IMG/VR virus record: IMGVR_UViG_3300037847_002388
Span: 1 to 51,030 of that record
Reading direction: 5' to 3' (one strand)
DNA: 51,030 nt
DNA from: a virus
Shown here: one piece after another, positions 2,382-51,030 of the stretch
How the letters are laid out: every line of letters begins with the position of its first letter
Position numbering within the stretch: the stretch's first letter is position 1
Made by a program: the position numbers and the translations under genes
Notes under the pieces: model-generated
Databases searched by the model: none
What the model was told of the DNA's origin: nothing
Seen by the model: only the letters and a program-made list of their open reading frames with translations

Positions 2382-2765
2382 ATGGATTTGAAAGATAATA
2401 TTAATTTTATAGATAAGGGCCAGTTTAAACCGTTATTCAATATATTTGGTTGGCAGGTTAAAGAAGTAAAAACTTACAGGGAGTGGGATGTTGTTAGAGC
2501 AGACTTCTATCCTGTTGGTTATGTTCTTGGATTCAGCAAGAAAGCAGTTATTGTATGCGATGGAGATATGCAGATTGTATATGATGGGAAAACATTCACC
2601 GATTTTGAACACATGGTTCAGATATACGGTGATAAAGCCTACGAGACATTCCCTAATTGGGAGGTTCTAGTTGAGAAACAATGGGCTATAAAAAAGGAAG
2701 GAGAATGGGTGGCGGCTTTTTCTAATTTAAGTGAAATGCCATATAGTAAACAAGTGAAGTGTTAA
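2382..2765 (+). CDS. Hypothetical protein, 127 aa
   Basis: Starts MDLKDNINFIDKGQFKPLF after the 2322-2358 hairpin and ends 2 bases before the reductase ATG. Predicted mixed alpha/beta with many aromatic residues (GWQVKEV, YPVGYVLGF, FPNWEVLVEKQWAIK). No membrane segment or metal motif. It may be co-translated with the reductase, but nothing ties it to that function. No family recognised. Confidence 0.6.
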   Translation: MDLKDNINFIDKGQFKPLFNIFGWQVKEVKTYREWDVVRADFYPVGYVLGFSKKAVIVCDGDMQIVYDGKTFTDFEHMVQIYGDKAYETFPNWEVLVEKQWAIKKEGEWVAAFSNLSEMPYSKQVKC

Positions 2766-2767
2766 TT

Positions 2768-4642
2768 ATGCAAGAAAACAAAGCGAGAGAAATATTAAGT
2801 CAGTTAACGGTATATATGAAGTATGCAAAATATATGCCAGAACAAAACAGGAAGGAGACATGGATAGAACTATGTCAAAGAAACATGGATATGCATCTAG
2901 AGAAGTTCTCACATTTAGGTGATGAGTTCTTACAAGAGATTGAGGATGTATATGCAGATTATGTTATTCCAAGAAAGATATTACCTTCAATGCGCTCAAT
3001 GCATTTTGCAGGTAAGCCAATTGAGATATCTCCTAATAGGATTTACAATTGTGCATATATGCCTATCAATGATGTACTATGCTTCAATGAAGCAATGTTC
3101 TTATTGTTAGGTGGAACAGGAGTAGGTTATTCTGTTCAGAAACATCATGTGAGGCAATTGCCTCCTATCCAACACCCCAATCCTAATCGAAAGAGAAAGA
3201 TAGTTATTGAAGATTCTATCATGGGTTGGGCTGATGCAATCAAGGAATTGTTTAGGTCTTACACAGGAGATTTGACTCAAACACCTAGATTCATCTATGA
3301 TGATATTAGACCAAAAGGTGCAAGGCTCAAGACTAGTGGTGGTAAAGCACCCGGCCCTGCTCCATTGAGGACTTGTATTAGTATCATAGAAGGTATTCTA
3401 CAAAACAAAGAAAATGGTACTCATTTAACAACATTAGAGTGTCATGATATAATGTGCCATATAGCAGATGCAGTATTGTCTGGTGGTATTCGTAGAGCAG
3501 CCATGATTAGTCTATTCAGTATTGATGATGATGAAATGATTAATTGTAAAGCAGGGCCATTTTGGGATGGTAATGCACAAAGAATGAGAGCGAATAACTC
3601 AGCAGTAATACTGAGGCACAAGATAGAAGAAGATGTATTCTACAATTTATGGAAGAGAATAGAGGATGGTGGAACTGGTGAACCCGGTTTGTATTTCACT
3701 AATGACAAAGATTGGGGAACTAACCCCTGTTGCGAAATAGCACTTAGACCCTATCAGTTCTGTAACTTGACTGAATGCAACGTTAGTAATGTTGAGGGTC
3801 AAGAAGACCTGAATAATAGAGTAAAGGCTGCCGCATTCTTAGGTACTCTACAAGCATCTTATACAGACTTCCATTATCTTAGGGATATATGGCAAGATAC
3901 TACTGAGAAAGATGCATTGTTAGGAGTATCAATGACAGGACTCGCTAGTAACAAGGTTGCTGATTTAGATGTAACTGGTTCAGTATTCGTTGCTAAGAGA
4001 GAGAACGCAAGAGTAGCAGATATAATCGGTGTAGAAAAGGCAGCAAGATTAACTTGTATCAAACCATCCGGTACTGCTTCTTGTGTATTGGGAACATCAA
4101 GTGGTATTCACGCTTGGCATTCTCCATATTATATTAGGAGAATTAGAGTCAAAGATGATGAGCCAATAGCATTGTATCTGAATAAACACCATCCTGAATT
4201 GATGGAGAAAGACCAGTTTGATGCTAATGGATATTGTATTGCTTTACCGCAAAAAGCACCAGTAGGTGCAACAACAAGTAAGGATGAAGATGTATTTGCT
4301 TTCTTAGAGAGAGTAAAGGATGCTTCTGTAAGATGGGTTTCACCCGGACATAGTAATGGACAGAACACTCACAATGTTTCTGCTACTGTATATATTCCCG
4401 ATGATAAATGGGATGATGTAGGTAGATGGATGTGGTTGAATAGGCATTTCTACAATGGATTGTCTTGTTTCCCATATGATGAGAACGCATATCCACAACC
4501 GCCATTTGAGGCAACAGATAAGAAGACTTACGAAAAGATGATGCAATCACTAAACAGTATTGATTTGACACAAGTTACTGACGATGATAATGATGATTTT
4601 GGTAACAATCCGGCTTGTGCAGGTGGGGCGTGTGATTTATAG
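2768..4642 (+). CDS. nrdJ: Adenosylcobalamin-dependent (class II) ribonucleotide reductase
   Basis: 624 aa from ATG 2768; the upstream in-frame GTG 2759 is less likely. It reduces ribonucleotides to deoxyribonucleotides using a radical from B12. Recognisable features are SMRSMHFAGKPIE followed by RIYNCAYMPI, a GGTGVGYS loop, NPCCEIALRP and NLTECN near the active site, IKPSGTASCVLG, and the C-terminal pair CAGGAC, which relays electrons from a thioredoxin or glutaredoxin. The order resembles the monomeric triphosphate reductase of Lactobacillus leichmannii, but this protein is shorter. There is no NrdB-type partner. A glutaredoxin gene lies upstream at 414-683. Use of B12 implies that the host makes or imports cobalamin. 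Confidence 0.93.
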   Translation: MQENKAREILSQLTVYMKYAKYMPEQNRKETWIELCQRNMDMHLEKFSHLGDEFLQEIEDVYADYVIPRKILPSMRSMHFAGKPIEISPNRIYNCAYMPINDVLCFNEAMFLLLGGTGVGYSVQKHHVRQLPPIQHPNPNRKRKIVIEDSIMGWADAIKELFRSYTGDLTQTPRFIYDDIRPKGARLKTSGGKAPGPAPLRTCISIIEGILQNKENGTHLTTLECHDIMCHIADAVLSGGIRRAAMISLFSIDDDEMINCKAGPFWDGNAQRMRANNSAVILRHKIEEDVFYNLWKRIEDGGTGEPGLYFTNDKDWGTNPCCEIALRPYQFCNLTECNVSNVEGQEDLNNRVKAAAFLGTLQASYTDFHYLRDIWQDTTEKDALLGVSMTGLASNKVADLDVTGSVFVAKRENARVADIIGVEKAARLTCIKPSGTASCVLGTSSGIHAWHSPYYIRRIRVKDDEPIALYLNKHHPELMEKDQFDANGYCIALPQKAPVGATTSKDEDVFAFLERVKDASVRWVSPGHSNGQNTHNVSATVYIPDDKWDDVGRWMWLNRHFYNGLSCFPYDENAYPQPPFEATDKKTYEKMMQSLNSIDLTQVTDDDNDDFGNNPACAGGACDL

Positions 4643-4973
4643 TCACAACATAATTAAAACAATAGATGATTTGGTACTCATCCAAGAGTATCTATTAGAA
4701 GAGATAGATACTATTGAGTCTATCATGCCTAGTGTAACTGTTTATACTGCATTAGACGACTACCAGTATAGAAATGTCAAAGAAGCAAAGAAGGCATTTA
4801 CAAGGGTAGTCAATGATACGATTGATGAGAATTTAACGCTAGACCAGTTTTTCCGCTATTTGCGGAGATTTTACATAGTCTCAGGTCTAGCGCAAGATGA
4901 CAAAGAGGTTGGCTCTAAAATGAGAAACCTGTTTGAAATGGCTATGTATTTGAAAATAAATAAAGAGGAATAA
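4632..4973 (+). CDS. Hypothetical helical protein, 113 aa
   Basis: I prefer GTG 4632 (MIYSHNIIKTIDDLVLIQEY) because AGGTGG at 4621-4626 is well spaced; the longer form from 4584 would run 59 bases into the reductase gene. Mostly helical (LIQEYLLEEIDTIESIM, NVKEAKKAFTRVVNDTIDE), with no cysteine motif and no clear membrane span. It overlaps the reductase end by 11 bases. No family recognised. Confidence 0.6.
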   Translation: MIYSHNIIKTIDDLVLIQEYLLEEIDTIESIMPSVTVYTALDDYQYRNVKEAKKAFTRVVNDTIDENLTLDQFFRYLRRFYIVSGLAQDDKEVGSKMRNLFEMAMYLKINKEE

Positions 4974-4975
4974 AA

Positions 4976-5404
4976 ATGAGATTTACGAATTGTAAATGTG
5001 GAAGCACGAATTTTGAAATAACACGGAACGGAAAGATGGAGTGTGTAGAATGTGGTAATTGGTTTAACCCATTCTCCGCACAACAACACAAGGTAATGAA
5101 GCCAAACGGTAAGCATTACTTTTGGGTTATATTGACACCACACTTCATTGAACGTTTTGAAGAAAACTTCATGGATAAAGATATAGAGATAGAATCTTTG
5201 GTAGCAGATTCTCTAGCAATAGAGAAGGCAGCCACTATGAAGAGAACGCAAGGTACTAGGTGGAATGATAAGCACATCTATTGGCGTTATTTCTTTAACC
5301 CAAAGAGAAAGCGTTTGGAGATGGAGTTTATCTCTCTAACTAATACTAATTATTTTACTACTAAGTATCACAAGGATGTAGAGTTTGTGAAGGTGGGATT
5401 CTGA
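4976..5404 (+). CDS. Zinc-ribbon protein with HFIERFEENF helix
   Basis: 142 aa. The N-terminal 25 residues form a zinc-ribbon pattern (CKCG ... CVECG). The rest contains LTPHFIERFEENF, similar in style to the H-x-x-E-R-F helix of small RNase-toxin-like and DUF4258-type folds, followed by beta-rich segments (HIYWRYFFNPKRKRLEMEFISL). Function is not established; nucleic-acid binding is the likely theme. The next gene's ATG overlaps its TGA. Confidence 0.6.
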   Translation: MRFTNCKCGSTNFEITRNGKMECVECGNWFNPFSAQQHKVMKPNGKHYFWVILTPHFIERFEENFMDKDIEIESLVADSLAIEKAATMKRTQGTRWNDKHIYWRYFFNPKRKRLEMEFISLTNTNYFTTKYHKDVEFVKVGF

Positions 5405-20579: not shown

Positions 20580-22250
20580 ATGATAATTACTGCAATAGAT
20601 AATGCAAATAAATTTGTTCTTAGATGGAGAGATGAGAACAATAAAAGATTAGAATCGGAAGTAGGTTATGTAGACTTCAATCCATATTTTTACATCTTAG
20701 CAAGTGAGACAGAACGCTCCGGTGTTAACATCACCGAGTATGTTAATGGTCGAAAGGATTCATTCAGAATACAACTTCATTATACTGTTGATGGTTCTGT
20801 ATCTCTCGATGGTAGGGCTTTGAAGAAAGTTACATGGAATCCTCCAAAGCCCGGATATACTAGAGAACTTCGTAAGCAATGGAGTGAAACTTTTGAGGCA
20901 GATGTACCCTTTCATTATCGGTATGCCATAGATTGTTTAACACACCTACCAGAATATAAACTAAGAAAGTTTTATTGGGATTTAGAGTGGCAACAACGTG
21001 GCCCCCATGATGGTGCTATTACTTGTATTTCATACTATGATAATTACACGAAGAAGTCTAAGGTATATTGGTGGCAACCTGATTCTGTAAATAGAAAGGT
21101 GAAAGGACATTCAAAGCCTTTTGATACTGAGCGAAAGATGTTGTCTGCTTTTGTTGATGATATAATTGACAAAGACCCTGATATGTTAATTGCATGGTTT
21201 GGTTCAAAGTTCGATTTGCCTAAGTTAATAGAAAGGCTACATGAGAATGGTATTGACCCAAGAGCAATATCTCCTTGTCATGATGTTAAGGGAGTGTATT
21301 TTTCTGATGGTATCAAACTTAGTAAAACGGTCAAAAACTATACTCCTATTGAACAACCAGTTAGAGGTAGGCTTATCCTAAATCTTGACTTGGCGTTTGA
21401 AAGACAATGGAATGATGCACAAAGAGGAACACTACCTTCTCTAGCATTAGATTATGTATCTGAAAATGTTCTTGGTGAAAAGAAACTAGTTAGTGAAAAG
21501 TTTCCAGATAAGAATCAATTCTTTTCTAGGGGATGGTTAGAAGATACTCAAAACTATCTTGACTATGCAAAGAAAGACGTTGACTTGATTGTAAGAATAG
21601 ATGAAGAAAATTATACTTCTGAAGCAATACTTTCTCTTCAACGTTTGATTGTTGCTCCCTTCGATGCTTGCTTTTATGCATCCAATATGGGTGGTATTTA
21701 CTTCATGCGTAATGCTACTTGGAAAGCACCAACAGGAGATAAAGAAGGTGAAAGGATTGAATATGAAGGTGCTATGATTTACAACCCAGAATCAGAAGGA
21801 ACAAATGGATTACATTTAGGAGTGGCTGCGTTTGATTTCGCAGGTCTATATCCTTCTATGATGATAGCAAGAAATATATCTTGGGAAACTAAATCTACTG
21901 AACCAACTGAGTTTGGTGTTAATGTTTTGATACCAAGGGATTTCAGTCCTGTTAAGTTTGAGGATTGGAAGTATTATAGAACAGATGAATTAGGTCTTCT
22001 ACCAAAAGCAGTATTAGACTTAAAGAAATTAAGAACAGAATATAAGAAGAGAATGTATTCTGCAAAAGACCCTGCTGAGTATGCTAAGTGGAATAATAAC
22101 CAGTTAGCAGTTAAGAGACTGATGGCTTCTTTTTATGGAGTGGTTGGCTATCAAGGATTTGGTTGGGCTGATGTTGATTTGGCTGCTAGTATAACTGCTA
22201 GTGCTAGAGAAGCAATTAGAGAGGCTGCGTTTAAGGTGATGGAATTATGA
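20580..22250 (+). CDS. polB-N: DNA polymerase B, N-terminal part (exonuclease plus motifs A and B)
   Basis: 556 aa carrying the 3-5 exonuclease and half of the polymerase domain. Exo I is YWDLEWQ (D134, E136), Exo II IAWFGSKFDLPKL, Exo III YAKKDVDL. Polymerase motif A is AFDFAGLYPSMM and motif B NNQLAVKRLMASFYGVVGY. The reading frame ends shortly after motif B (AREAIREAAFKVMEL), exactly before the position of motif C, which is in a separate gene at 22431-23348. Two microgenes lie between. The two chains presumably assemble into one enzyme. No intein splice residues are seen at the break. Confidence 0.95.
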   Translation: MIITAIDNANKFVLRWRDENNKRLESEVGYVDFNPYFYILASETERSGVNITEYVNGRKDSFRIQLHYTVDGSVSLDGRALKKVTWNPPKPGYTRELRKQWSETFEADVPFHYRYAIDCLTHLPEYKLRKFYWDLEWQQRGPHDGAITCISYYDNYTKKSKVYWWQPDSVNRKVKGHSKPFDTERKMLSAFVDDIIDKDPDMLIAWFGSKFDLPKLIERLHENGIDPRAISPCHDVKGVYFSDGIKLSKTVKNYTPIEQPVRGRLILNLDLAFERQWNDAQRGTLPSLALDYVSENVLGEKKLVSEKFPDKNQFFSRGWLEDTQNYLDYAKKDVDLIVRIDEENYTSEAILSLQRLIVAPFDACFYASNMGGIYFMRNATWKAPTGDKEGERIEYEGAMIYNPESEGTNGLHLGVAAFDFAGLYPSMMIARNISWETKSTEPTEFGVNVLIPRDFSPVKFEDWKYYRTDELGLLPKAVLDLKKLRTEYKKRMYSAKDPAEYAKWNNNQLAVKRLMASFYGVVGYQGFGWADVDLAASITASAREAIREAAFKVMEL

Positions 22251-22351: not shown

Positions 22352-22434
22352 AAAACAGAAGGCAATGTAGATGGTGTGGGGCAATACATCCTTTTGGTTT
22401 GGATAGAAGATATAAGTGTGGTGAATGTAAATGA
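22348..22434 (+). CDS. Zinc-ribbon micro-protein between the polymerase halves, 28 aa
   Basis: Reads MKNRRQCRWCGAIHPFGLDR then RYKCGECK. Two CxxC pairs (CRWC, CGEC) make a minimal zinc ribbon. The stop overlaps the ATG of the polymerase C-part (ATGA). Such a ribbon could dock onto the polymerase or DNA, but this is a guess. The two CxxC pairs in so short a frame argue that it is coding. Confidence 0.55.
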   Translation: MKNRRQCRWCGAIHPFGLDRRYKCGECK

Positions 22435-23348
22435 AGGTGGTGTATGGACATACTGATTCTATCTATGTTCAGATGCCTATGGAACAAGCAGAAGCAACCC
22501 TTCAATTATTGAATAACCATGTTAGACAGAAGTTTCCTAATCTGTTAGAATTAGATGAACACCCTGTAACATTAGAGTTTGAGAAATACTATCAATCTCT
22601 AGGTGTGGGTATGACTAAGAATAGAAACGCAGGTTTGATATCTTGGAAGGATGGTAAATACTTAGATGAACCAGAATTCGTAATGACTGGTTTTACTGCT
22701 AAGAGACTATCAATCACTAAGTTAGCAAAGGAGACTCAAATGAGTATTCTAAAGATGTGGGTCGGTCAATTCACCGAGGAAGAAATAACAGGTATGCTGA
22801 AGAAAGCATACTACGCAGTTCTTGAAGGTAGAGTTCCGGTGGAGTACCTTATTAACAGAAGTAGATTTAGACCCGAAAGATTGTCTTACAAATGTAAAAA
22901 CTGTAAAAAACAATTATCAATAGAAGATTGTACCAATGCTCACAAAGAAGCACAAAGGGATGGTCATATATCTTGTTGTCCTAAATGTGGTCAGCCTATT
23001 GATGTAGTAACACAAGAGGGTAGAAGACCTAGTATTGGTTCTGGTATTGAAGGTGTTATTTGGAATCATCAGAATGAAGAAAACAAGATAGATGATTCTT
23101 ATGTATTCCTTAGAGTAGCAGATGATGTTCAAAGAGCAACGTACATCAATCCAGTAACAGGTGTTAGAAAAAGACCTTCCTATATTTCTGCATCAACTGT
23201 GGAAGAGTTAGAACAACATAAGGCAGATTTACCGCACTATGCTGAATCAATAATAAAGAAGGCGGAGCCTATTTACAGGGCAATGGGTTGGAGTCTTGAC
23301 CCTATCAAAAGAGACTCGAAACAAAAGACATTAGATGAATGGTGGTAA
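22431..23348 (+). CDS. polB-C: DNA polymerase B, C-terminal part (motif C, zinc insertion, PIP box)
   Basis: 305 aa starting at MKVVYGHTDSIY, so it begins at motif C. The usual YGDTDS reads YGHTDS: the catalytic second Asp (D9) is kept, while the first is His7. The thumb follows (FVMTGFTAKRLSITKL), then a zinc-binding insertion with paired cysteines (CKNC, CCPKC). The C-terminus KQKTLDEWW is a PIP box (Q-x-x-L-x-x-W-W) for binding PCNA. Together with 20580-22250 it forms a complete B-family polymerase. Confidence 0.94.
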   Translation: MKVVYGHTDSIYVQMPMEQAEATLQLLNNHVRQKFPNLLELDEHPVTLEFEKYYQSLGVGMTKNRNAGLISWKDGKYLDEPEFVMTGFTAKRLSITKLAKETQMSILKMWVGQFTEEEITGMLKKAYYAVLEGRVPVEYLINRSRFRPERLSYKCKNCKKQLSIEDCTNAHKEAQRDGHISCCPKCGQPIDVVTQEGRRPSIGSGIEGVIWNHQNEENKIDDSYVFLRVADDVQRATYINPVTGVRKRPSYISASTVEELEQHKADLPHYAESIIKKAEPIYRAMGWSLDPIKRDSKQKTLDEWW

Positions 23349-48063: not shown

Positions 48064-48507
48064 CTATGCACCTATTCTGTTTGCTCCTGTTCTATTCATT
48101 CTTATGTTGATTTCTCTTGCTACCTTGTTGGCTATATCTCTAATTTCTGCATCAGAAGCACCTACACGGCCGTTTATATGAACATGGATATTATTTCCAC
48201 CTGCTCTTGTACCCATGCTATTTGCATTATTGCTTATCCTTGCACCTCTAGGTAAGTTAACTAATTCTGGCCCTCTTTCTCCAACGATTGCAGGGCCACC
48301 CATAGATACCCCTCCGGTTGAGAAGAATCTACCAATTGTGTTTTCATATAACCCGCTTAGTAATCCGCCGATTACTCCAACTAATACTTTGAACAGACCT
48401 GCTAAAACATTAGCAATTAGTTTAACTACATTGAGGAAAATATCTTTGAAGAAAATTTCCAATGCTCCTAATAAAGGCTGCTTTGAAAAATTTGAATGCA
48501 CTTCCAA
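48064..48507 (-). CDS. Tape measure protein, C-terminal portion in a shifted frame
   Basis: 147 aa as an open frame from TTG 48507, without a proper ribosome site. It contains a hydrophobic stretch (LIANVLAGLFKVLVGVIGGL) and the tape-measure end motif GGPAIVGERGPELVNLPRGAR. It overlaps the 48422-49420 frame by 86 bases and continues it in the +1 frame; moving over at the T5 run (48486-48490) would give one 451-aa protein. So this is most likely the end of the same protein, not a separate gene. Confidence 0.72.
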   Translation of the reverse strand: MEVHSNFSKQPLLGALEIFFKDIFLNVVKLIANVLAGLFKVLVGVIGGLLSGLYENTIGRFFSTGGVSMGGPAIVGERGPELVNLPRGARISNNANSMGTRAGGNNIHVHINGRVGASDAEIRDIANKVAREINIRMNRTGANRIGA

Positions 48508-49420
48508 ATTGTTTGCTTAAGTAAGGCCAACCTTTCTTGATAATCTTAGCAAGAATTGTGATACCTAATACAACTAACAATCCATATATTAGGAATTTAC
48601 CTAACGCTGCTAAGGTTACTGTTAGATATTTACCTGCCATTGGTAATATCTTTTTTAATTTTTTAGCATTGATTATTTGTGTTTTGATGAATCCTTGTCT
48701 TGTGTCTCTTTGCATCATAGGGTCATTAGGGTCGGGGTCGCCTGTACCCAACTTACCACGAAGAATGTTATTTAATCCACCACCCATTTTCTGAAATATT
48801 TTGAGGGGTTCAAGTGCTTCCTTTGCTATGAATCTGAATGCTCCTGTAACTGGCGCAGGTACATCCTTTGCAGTAAAACCTCTTCTAGTTACGTCTTTTG
48901 TTGCAGCGAATGGATTAGCATCATCAAATCTTTTTCTTAAACTTCTACCAAAGACCTTCTTTCTAAATTGCTTACCTCTTTTTAATGCTACTTTTTTTAT
49001 TGCATTAATTTGAGTATCAAAGAAATTTTCTGCGGTTTCTTTTGCTAATTTTTCGTCACCCAAGTCTTGAACAAATAATCTGTAAAGTGGTTGTTCAGTT
49101 ATCTTTTTTCTTTGTTCTTGTAATGTTTTTAATGAGTCTGCTAACCCTAAGTTTGCATCCATGTTCTTTAATATTGATTTTTGATTTTCTTCATTTGCAT
49201 TAGTATATGCTTGAACAATATTTGATACACCACGAAGATAATTTTGTAATCTCCAAAATGTACTGCCCGAACTGAATCTGCTGATAACGTTCCAAAGTTT
49301 GTTTCCACCTTCACCTGCTTCACCAAAACTTTTGATTAGACCTTCATTGGCCTGATTCAACCTGCTAATAGCAATAGTCAAATCGTTGGTAAAAACGTCA
49401 GCATCTCTATCTTTTGTCAT
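48422..49420 (-). CDS. Tape measure protein, N-terminal portion
   Basis: 332 aa. The ATG overlaps the TAA of the frameshifted chaperone extension. Mostly helical (ISRLNQANEGLIKSFGEAGE) with a central hydrophobic membrane-like segment (KFLIYGLLVVLGITILAKII), as in tape measures, which fix tail length and may enter the host membrane. Short for this class if the tail is long. The last 21 codons after the T5 run look non-native, and the natural sequence continues in the +1 frame at 48486-48064. Confidence 0.75.
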   Translation of the reverse strand: MTKDRDADVFTNDLTIAISRLNQANEGLIKSFGEAGEGGNKLWNVISRFSSGSTFWRLQNYLRGVSNIVQAYTNANEENQKSILKNMDANLGLADSLKTLQEQRKKITEQPLYRLFVQDLGDEKLAKETAENFFDTQINAIKKVALKRGKQFRKKVFGRSLRKRFDDANPFAATKDVTRRGFTAKDVPAPVTGAFRFIAKEALEPLKIFQKMGGGLNNILRGKLGTGDPDPNDPMMQRDTRQGFIKTQIINAKKLKKILPMAGKYLTVTLAALGKFLIYGLLVVLGITILAKIIKKGWPYLSKQFGSAFKFFKAAFIRSIGNFLQRYFPQCS

Positions 49421-49635
49421 TACTTCATCTTCCTCATTTGTCTATCTATTTCGTCTGCCTTTAATTGTTCTACTTCTGAATGTATTTTCATCATTTCTAA
49501 TATTATTTCTGCCGGAGTATTGTATGCTTCCATTGGACTTATACTGAATACTTTTGAATATGAATAAATAAGGATTCGTGAGGCTAAAACAGGTTCTACT
49601 TGTCCTCCTTTTAGACCTCTACGAATCTCTTTCAG
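49420..49635 (-). CDS. Frameshift extension of the tail assembly chaperone (gpT-like)
   Basis: A 71-codon frame with no start codon near its beginning; its codons begin LKEIRRGLKGGQVEPVLASR and end DEIDRQMRKMK before TAA 49420-49422, which overlaps the tape measure ATG. It lies in the -1 frame of the upstream chaperone and is reached by slippage at 49635-49641, giving a fusion of about 189 aa. Compare lambda G and G-T. The extension usually binds the tape measure. Charged, helical C-terminus. Confidence 0.75.
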   Translation of the reverse strand: MKEIRRGLKGGQVEPVLASRILIYSYSKVFSISPMEAYNTPAEIILEMMKIHSEVEQLKADEIDRQMRKMK

Positions 49636-49988
49636 TTTCCCGTATCATCCCCTAAAAAGTCGTCAAAGGGATTAGGTAGTACATTCTTTAATTGCGCTCC
49701 AACAAAAGGAGATAATCTCAAAAGTTCTACCGTTGTTAATGACGGTTCTGTTTTCTCTACGAAGTTTTCAACCATAAACCTATACATTTTATTTAGGTCT
49801 ATACCCATACTTCCTTCATCAGCGTCTAGGCTCATCACCACAGATAACGCTTGTTCTACTTGAAGCCATGTAGGTTCTTTGACCCACACCTTCAATATAT
49901 CATTTGAATTTTCGTCTACCTTCAAATGATGACATTTTGTTTCTACTGTTGTAAACAGTCTGTTCTTATCACTTACTATGTTTTCCAT
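49632..49988 (-). CDS. Tail assembly chaperone (gpG-like), with -1 frameshift site at its end
   Basis: 118 aa from ATG 49988; AGGTGG precedes it, and GTG 49997 is an alternative. Helical protein with WVKEPTWLQVEQALSVVMSL and MYRFMVENFVEKTEP, then LRLSPFVGAQLKNVLPNPFD, typical of siphovirus tail chaperones. It sits directly before the tape measure, the conserved place. Its stop TGA follows a GGGAAAC slippery heptamer, so a fraction of ribosomes should make a longer fusion. Confidence 0.75.
   Translation of the reverse strand: MENIVSDKNRLFTTVETKCHHLKVDENSNDILKVWVKEPTWLQVEQALSVVMSLDADEGSMGIDLNKMYRFMVENFVEKTEPSLTTVELLRLSPFVGAQLKNVLPNPFDDFLGDDTGN
49635..49641 (-). other. Programmed -1 ribosomal frameshift heptamer GGGAAAC
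   Basis: On the - strand the bases are G GGA AAC in the chaperone frame, immediately followed by TGA (49632-49634). This is the X XXY YYZ form used for -1 slippage; lambda uses GGGAAAG in the equivalent gene. Both P- and A-site tRNAs can re-pair on GGG AAA. The -1 frame then stays open for 71 codons. Confidence 0.8.
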
Positions 49989-50221
49989 TTTTTCCACCTA
50001 CAATATAAAACTAACAAACAAACGATTGTTAGTGGAATGTTACAATAAAAGGATTTTACCTCCTTTTTAGACCTCCTAATATGGCCGAAATCATACCCTT
50101 GATGCGGGAATAGACCCACATATTCGGAGATTGCTTCATGATTTTCGCCCTCGACTTTCTTAGAAATGTTATATAACCCTTTGAATTGTTCTTTACATCG
50201 TTTTACCCGATAATAATCCAT
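49976..50221 (-). CDS. Possible small basic protein with C-terminal membrane segment, 81 aa
   Basis: Starts MDYYRVKRCKEQFKGLYNIS inside the end of the tail tube gene (19 bases overlap) and ends overlapping the chaperone start. The C-terminus (IPLTIVCLLVLYCRWKKWKT) looks like a membrane helix. No good ribosome site. In another frame a 27-codon basic ORF (MKQSPNMWVYSRIKG...) starts near 50141 and ends KRR. The 200-base space between tube and chaperone could hold either, or neither. Confidence 0.35.
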   Translation of the reverse strand: MDYYRVKRCKEQFKGLYNISKKVEGENHEAISEYVGLFPHQGYDFGHIRRSKKEVKSFYCNIPLTIVCLLVLYCRWKKWKT

Positions 50222-51030
50222 TTACCATGATATTTACATTCATGGAGGGTGCGAGCCGAGAGAGTCACGGCCACATCAATCATTCCTTTGTCGTCTGGGA
50301 AGGGAATATCAACAGATTGTACTATGTAATCTTTTAAGGTAATTGTAATCTTATCAGTATCAGCAGTAGAGTTTTTGTCAAATGTTAGAACAATATCTCC
50401 TAGCGTAACTTCATCAGCACCTCTTAATTCATCAAAGATTAATCTATCAGTAACTTGAAGATTTAAACTGACTTCATATGTTCTTTGTGCAGGTTGATGT
50501 GCTGATACAATAGACCTATCATAATCACCGATGTATCTTTGTGGTGTAATATTATTATTTATTGTAAGAGTACCGCTTTTTACTCTAGCAAGGTTCTGTC
50601 CAAATGCTTTAACAGTTCCATCTGAAAACATGAATGGTAGATTATCTGCACTTAAATTATGGTTGAATAAACCAGAAGCAGTTCTTACTTTTCTCTTTGG
50701 AATATAGTTTTCATTACTATCATATCCTCTCCTAGTTACTGCATCAATAGTAGCCTTCAATTCTTGACCTTCTTCAAAATTCATTGTAAATGTATTTACT
50801 TGACATCCTGTAAATATACGAGAGAAAAGGTTTTCATCCAAAGCATCTTGGTAGTAGTCTGCATCAAGTACATTTCCTTTCTCATTAGTAAATTCTAATG
50901 CAAAAGATGGTAGTGTTGCTCCGTCTGCTTCTGTAAATGTATAATCTACTTTAGCAGAATTCCATTTTAGTAAAGAAGAGTCTGCCGTACCGAATGTTTT
51001 TGGTGGGCTTATTGTTCCTTCTTCTCTTCT
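50203..51030 (-). CDS. Major tail tube-like protein, start cut by the window end
   Basis: The frame is open from the window edge (51030) to TAA at 50203, giving 275 visible residues; an internal TTG at 50841 is not the true start. The core GCQVNTFTMNFEEGQELKAT, SGTLTINNNI, QRYIGDYDR, HQPAQRTYEVSLNLQVTD and a final IDVAVTLSARTL match the beta-sandwich of siphovirus tail tube proteins that polymerise into the tail shaft. Its place just upstream of the chaperone and tape measure genes fits. The N-terminal part lies beyond the window. Confidence 0.82.
   Translation of the reverse strand, partial: RREEGTISPPKTFGTADSSLLKWNSAKVDYTFTEADGATLPSFALEFTNEKGNVLDADYYQDALDENLFSRIFTGCQVNTFTMNFEEGQELKATIDAVTRRGYDSNENYIPKRKVRTASGLFNHNLSADNLPFMFSDGTVKAFGQNLARVKSGTLTINNNITPQRYIGDYDRSIVSAHQPAQRTYEVSLNLQVTDRLIFDELRGADEVTLGDIVLTFDKNSTADTDKITITLKDYIVQSVDIPFPDDKGMIDVAVTLSARTLHECKYHGKWIIIG

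Follow-up and report, generated by a model that had tools for sequence, protein, structure and literature searches.

A putative -1 programmed ribosomal frameshift with flanking candidate stimulators in the tail assembly chaperone gene of a magrovirus-like, probably archaeal virus

The tail chaperone locus and its virus

We analysed a 51,030-nucleotide stretch of viral DNA (IMG/VR record IMGVR_UViG_3300037847_002388, positions 1 to 51,030; hereafter the window), in which the tail genes lie on the minus strand. Within the tail module, a gene for a tail assembly chaperone (TAC) sits directly upstream of the tape measure gene, and a further tail gene lies upstream of it (50203-51030, minus strand, cut by the window end; phrog_290 minor tail protein, E=1.3e-19). 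The chaperone ORF, here called the 0 frame, has its stop at 49632 and two candidate starts, ATG 49988 and GTG 49997. Comparison with relatives favours the ATG, and the GTG sits inside the Shine-Dalgarno-like AGGTGG of that ATG. The resulting G-like product (49632-49988, minus strand) comprises 118 amino acids followed by TGA. The ORF ends in ACG GGA AAC TGA, and the minus strand at 49641-49632 reads G GGA AAC TGA, that is, a slippery heptamer G_GGA_AAC (49635-49641) with the 0-frame stop (49632-49634) directly 3' of it. Read in the -1 frame from 49641, the sequence stays open for 73 codons, 71 of them past GGG AAA, and ends at TAA 49422-49420, which overlaps the tape measure ATG by one base (TAATG), the final A of the stop being the first base of the start. 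This T-like extension (49420-49641, minus strand) contains no ATG, GTG or TTG for its first 36 codons. An earlier note, made from the letters of the window, had described the end of the chaperone frame, the 71 further codons with their overlapping stop and the missing start codon, and all of these readings are exact, the first base for base. An 81-aa ORF overlaps the start of the chaperone gene (49976-50221, minus strand), and the related contig L086 has an ORF of equal length at the corresponding place (4768-5013).

Several searches assign the 0-frame product to the tail assembly chaperones. It matched phrog_25860 (tail assembly chaperone, E=2.1e-5), and its AF2 model (pLDDT 81) matched the chaperone of HHTV-2 in Foldseek (E=1.9e-6), with weaker fold matches to chaperones of bacterial phages. 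Profile comparison by hhalign identified the HVTV-1 chaperone as a remote homolog (E=1.7e-4 over 82 columns). The fold search of the PDB gave no significant match for the chaperone, and searching solved structures by sequence yielded no useful match. Tblastn against annotated phages returned zero matches for the window chaperone and likewise for the 914-aa tail protein, while a consensus chaperone query against the same phages found matches at E>1 only, some weak ones falling on the chaperones of HVTV-1 and HCTV-5; the HCTV-1 chaperone was not recovered as a homolog. For the -1 part, AF2 predicted a compact helical domain (pLDDT 96). The tape measure gene (48064-49420, minus strand) is interrupted in the window contig, where it forms ORFs of 332 and 147 aa, the second part matching phrog_19914 (E=3.6e-9). 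The two frames split at 48422-48507, with the junction near 48473, and 65 nt present in both L002 and L086 are missing, which indicates a deletion or an assembly error in the window contig.

The window encodes a TFIIB-like protein, an RFC small subunit, an ATP-dependent ligase, a Hef/XPF nuclease and a Cas4-like nuclease, as well as a DNA polymerase B divided between two ORFs (20580-22250 and 22431-23348, plus strand), and its replication and structural genes run in opposite directions. Both features agree with those of the Magrovirales, an order of viruses of Poseidoniales archaea (split PolB, RFC small subunit, TFB, ligase, ERCC4 nuclease). In the ICTV description of the Aoguangviridae (order Magrovirales), the labels TFB, RFC-S and PolB-NTD/CTD match the window, and the accompanying ICTV figure already has a TAC marked on a magrovirus. 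Among annotated records, the closest PolB matches were haloarchaeal viruses. Magrovirales genomes span 90-110 kb; contigs of relatives are up to 99 kb long, and the window is a fragment of 51 kb, with the head genes (major capsid, portal, terminase) falling outside it. A large ORF at 2759-4642 (plus strand) gave weak matches to a ribonucleotide reductase barrel and a B12-dependent insertion domain. Judged by its genes, the window is probably part of the genome of a magrovirus-like virus that infects marine archaea. The earlier note had spoken of an archaeal virus, which gene content makes likely; since the archaeal-type genes match those of the Aoguangviridae, we infer that the host is likely archaeal as well. 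The single match among genome contigs, L086 (NZMJ01000011.1), is 10.5 kb long and was binned with the bacterium Maricaulis. Its chaperone is 96% identical to that of the window and its ORF layout is that of a viral tail region; it is probably a misbinned virus contig.

Conservation of the heptamer and the second frame

Five scans of IMG/VR and one scan of genome contigs yielded 135 distinct loci, the window included. We took as representatives the 63 loci below 90% identity, among which pairwise identity of the chaperone goes down to 46%. An in-frame X_XXY_YYZ heptamer lies 0-30 nt upstream of the 0-frame stop in 135/135 loci, and hence in all 63 representatives. Elsewhere in the same genes such heptamers occur at 41 of 6453 codons (0.64% per codon), a background against which an end heptamer in every representative excludes chance. 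It is also the sole heptamer between the last -1-frame stop and the 0-frame stop in 62 of the 63.

The letters of the heptamer vary among the representatives: GGGAAAC (22), AAAAAAC (18), GGGAAAT (8) and AAAAAAA (6) are the common types, with GGGAAAA (4), AAAAAAG (4) and GGGAAAG (1) being rarer, and loci L080 and L081 carry AAAAAAT. On the tree, the signal changed between GGGAAAN and AAAAAAN at least twice, with X_XXY_YYZ kept throughout, and a further GGG/AAA change separates L059 from L080, whose proteins are 91% identical. A change from GGGAAA to AAAAAA alters the encoded residues and leaves intact the re-pairing of two tRNAs, the pattern that tandem slippage should leave behind.

The -1 frame is open in 130/135 loci, where the extension measures 68-83 codons (that of L036 extends to the contig end). 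Of 14 pairs compared in this frame, 12 gave a dN/dS of 0.11-0.35 and the other two 0.53-0.54; by this measure the extension is under purifying selection. The five exceptions are L039, L305, L306, L311 and L312. In L039 most of the second domain is gone after the heptamer and remnants of its end lie in another frame, the result of either a real deletion or an assembly error. In the other four, which retain AAAAAAG and the upstream block described below, the second domain lies in the +1 (= -2) frame, and an ATG overlaps the stop codon of the 0 frame. Synthesis of the domain would need a -2 or +1 shift, or reinitiation, and these loci may have changed to another type of frameshift or to reinitiation, perhaps on more than one occasion. 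The earlier note had proposed conservation of the heptamer and of the -1 frame in related genomes as a check on its reading, and a downstream stem-loop as another. The heptamer is conserved in all 135 loci and the -1 frame in all but the five just named, so that the reading survives the refuting condition the note had set for itself, and a stem-loop is present, as set out in the following section.

Elements flanking the heptamer

An internal Shine-Dalgarno-like block, GGGGNTGAT, which the earlier note overlooked, lies 7 nt upstream of the heptamer; other relatives have GGAGG or GGTGAT in its place. In the window we annotated this block as GGGGATGAT (49644-49652, minus strand), with 7 nt from its GGGG to the heptamer, and GGGGNTGAT is able to pair with the 3' end of 16S rRNA with one base bulged. 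Among the first 41 representatives, synonymous variation collapses over the five codons GGG GNT GAT NNG GGA, a collapse that is unique to the block and the heptamer after column 85, other low columns lying earlier in the gene. Within GNT, the third base is T in all 41 sequences, although the codon variously encodes D, A or V. The GGAGG and GGTGAT of the more distant relatives are canonical Shine-Dalgarno forms and encode other amino acids. Over the 63 representatives, the mean duplex energy with the 16S 3' end was -10.8 kcal/mol versus -7.1 kcal/mol in synonymous resamples, and 0 of 200 resampled sets reached the observed mean. The window's own block is not stronger than its amino acids predict (p=0.5), and the related sequences are non-independent, so the excess is a family-level result. 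Mean Shine-Dalgarno pairing at the gene starts of these viruses was -7.4 versus -3.4 in random windows, and Shine-Dalgarno sequences thus appear to be used at their gene starts.

The block might nevertheless be kept for the protein or for some other reason and leave a real frameshift unstimulated. This alternative targets one part of our explanation, and the heptamer, with or without the stem-loop, would then suffice. The absence of any excess in the window taken alone speaks for it, as does the spacing: the Shine-Dalgarno sequence of dnaX lies 10 nt from its heptamer, and 7 nt is shorter. The family-wide duplex energies, the invariant T across three different residues and the variants that still pair while encoding other amino acids speak against it, and on this evidence we regard it as unlikely, though it deserves serious weight.

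Downstream of the heptamer, the window RNA folds into a bulged stem-loop (49570-49631, minus strand; -23.6 kcal/mol, z=-3.8), whose main stem begins 7 nt past the heptamer and is preceded by weak AAG/CUU pairs 3 nt past it. A fold with z<-2 was obtained at this position for 89% of the AAA-type and 49% of the GGG-type representatives versus 6-11% in control windows. In the first run with 41 sequences, two control windows further upstream reached 27-34%, which points to other structured parts in the TAC gene. Covariation was counted in two sets of sequences. Among 22 relatives picked largely for good folding, 12 pairs had changed on both sides, a number reached by 0 of 500 shuffles, and 75% were paired versus 38-47% when the sequences were slid. 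Among 21 AAA-type sequences that were not picked for folding, 50 cells had changed on both sides versus 30.7 +/- 4.4 (0/500 shuffles), with 63% pairing versus 39-44% when slid. RNAalifold gave no consensus structure for all representatives or for subsets, probably because the stems differ in register, and we therefore used counts on named structures. About half of the GGG-type lineages lack a significant stem-loop and several of them form no stem; the element is therefore common in the family but not universal.

The frameshift reading, its alternatives and known systems

Taken together, these observations are very probably explained by a -1 programmed ribosomal frameshift that makes two products from one tail chaperone gene in a magrovirus-like virus. 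The majority of ribosomes would terminate at TGA, giving G, the chaperone of 118 aa. In a minority, tRNA-Gly on GGA and tRNA-Asn on AAC would slip back together onto GGG and AAA, and these ribosomes would read on in the -1 frame to make G-T, a fusion protein of about 189 aa whose C-terminal domain is predicted to be helical. Two neighbouring elements probably aid the slip, as they do in bacterial dnaX: the upstream Shine-Dalgarno-like sequence, by pairing with 16S rRNA, and the stem-loop, which begins 3-7 nt downstream. If the proteins act as those of lambda do, the tape measure would be coated by many copies of G and few of G-T, which would also recruit the subunits of the tail tube. With less assurance, we favour the broader view that archaeal ribosomes slip by -1 through a dnaX-type signal conserved across the family, and that sister lineages have moved to +1/-2.

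Three alternatives would do without ribosomal slippage altogether. The first treats the two frames as two genes that yield no fusion protein, the second of them being translated independently, either from a start codon of its own or by reinitiation coupled to termination. The chaperone stop does lie just inside the second frame, and the ATG overlapping that stop in L305, L306, L311 and L312 is what such a gene would use. But the window offers no start over 36 codons, and an ATG falls within the first 16 codons in just 6 of 60 representatives, so that a start codon of the second frame is not conserved; the invariant X_XXY_YYZ, the switching between GGG and AAA and the placement of the Shine-Dalgarno-like block would also be left unexplained. 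We consider this reading very improbable. Still less credible is transcriptional slippage on the heptamer, by which bases would be inserted into or lost from the mRNA and the frames joined by normal translation. Polymerase slippage is conceivable in AAAAAAN relatives with runs of 6-7 A, but the runs in the GGGAAAC of the window are only 3 long, the GGG and AAA forms are interchangeable in a manner fitting tandem tRNA slippage, and the Shine-Dalgarno-like block and the stem-loop stand at ribosomal spacing. On the start, heptamer and spacing evidence we rejected both. That the break is a sequencing error, a pseudogene or a chance ORF, as the damage to the contig elsewhere (the tape measure 65 nt short) might suggest, is refuted by the recurrence of the break, with its heptamer and frame, at 135 loci drawn from many samples and by purifying selection on the -1 frame, and can be practically dismissed.

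The earlier note had called the arrangement a -1 frameshift of the lambda G/G-T type, and the 135 loci, the selection acting on both frames and the chaperone matches bear this out as the probable reading. Such a frameshift is not new to archaeal viruses. A review (PMC5009743) describes -1 TAC frameshifts in HVTV-1, HCTV-1, HCTV-2 and HCTV-5, the one in HCTV-1 at G_GGA_AAC, and the GenBank records of these four viruses annotate joined TAC genes. Nor is the note's claim that archaeal ribosomes slip new or proven by sequence: -1 frameshifting has been measured in Saccharolobus, at about 10% in vitro (reviewed in PMC8211752). The Saccharolobus solfataricus fucA1 frameshift occurs at A_AAA_AAT, the heptamer also carried by L080 and L081, but in a cellular gene with another layout and product.

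The haloarchaeal viruses share with the window a joined TAC coding sequence upstream of the tape measure, and HCTV-1 has the same heptamer; that of HVTV-1 and HCTV-5 is G_GGA_AAG and that of HCTV-2 is A_AAA_AAC. Unlike the window, they have no significant fold downstream of their heptamers, and their upstream Shine-Dalgarno-like match is not above the background of their own genes. The second domain is longer than in the window in HVTV-1, HCTV-5 and HCTV-2, and the chaperone stop lies 27 nt past the heptamer in HVTV-1, HCTV-5 and HCTV-1 compared with 0 in the window.

With lambda G/G-T the window family shares the order of chaperone and tape measure, a heptamer at the end of the chaperone frame and a start-less -1 frame, which in the family is under purifying selection. 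The lambda heptamer is GGGAAAG rather than the GGGAAAC of the window, and we know of no Shine-Dalgarno element in the lambda frameshift signal. E. coli dnaX combines an internal Shine-Dalgarno sequence, a slippery heptamer and a 3' stem-loop, and its A_AAA_AAG is present in some relatives of the window. The window family resembles it in the upstream pairing, seen at family level, and in a stem 7 nt downstream, within 5-9 nt. The gene is a different one, and the shift shortens the protein in dnaX whereas it would extend the protein here. A frameshift known from other tailed viruses thus appears in this family with what resembles the full three-part signal known from bacteria.

In the literature that we searched, we found no report of a -1 TAC frameshift in magroviruses and none of Shine-Dalgarno-stimulated frameshifting in archaea; if our reading is true, this would be, as far as that literature goes, the first such stimulated frameshift in archaea. 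With this family, the two-frame tail chaperone reaches beyond a few haloarchaeal viruses into a viral group that is abundant in the ocean, and the TAC genes of these viruses that are annotated as two proteins should be joined. The family also offers, ready for alignment, well over a hundred natural versions of a single frameshift signal, and with them a testable question, namely whether archaeal ribosomes respond to an internal Shine-Dalgarno sequence and a stem-loop as bacterial ribosomes do.
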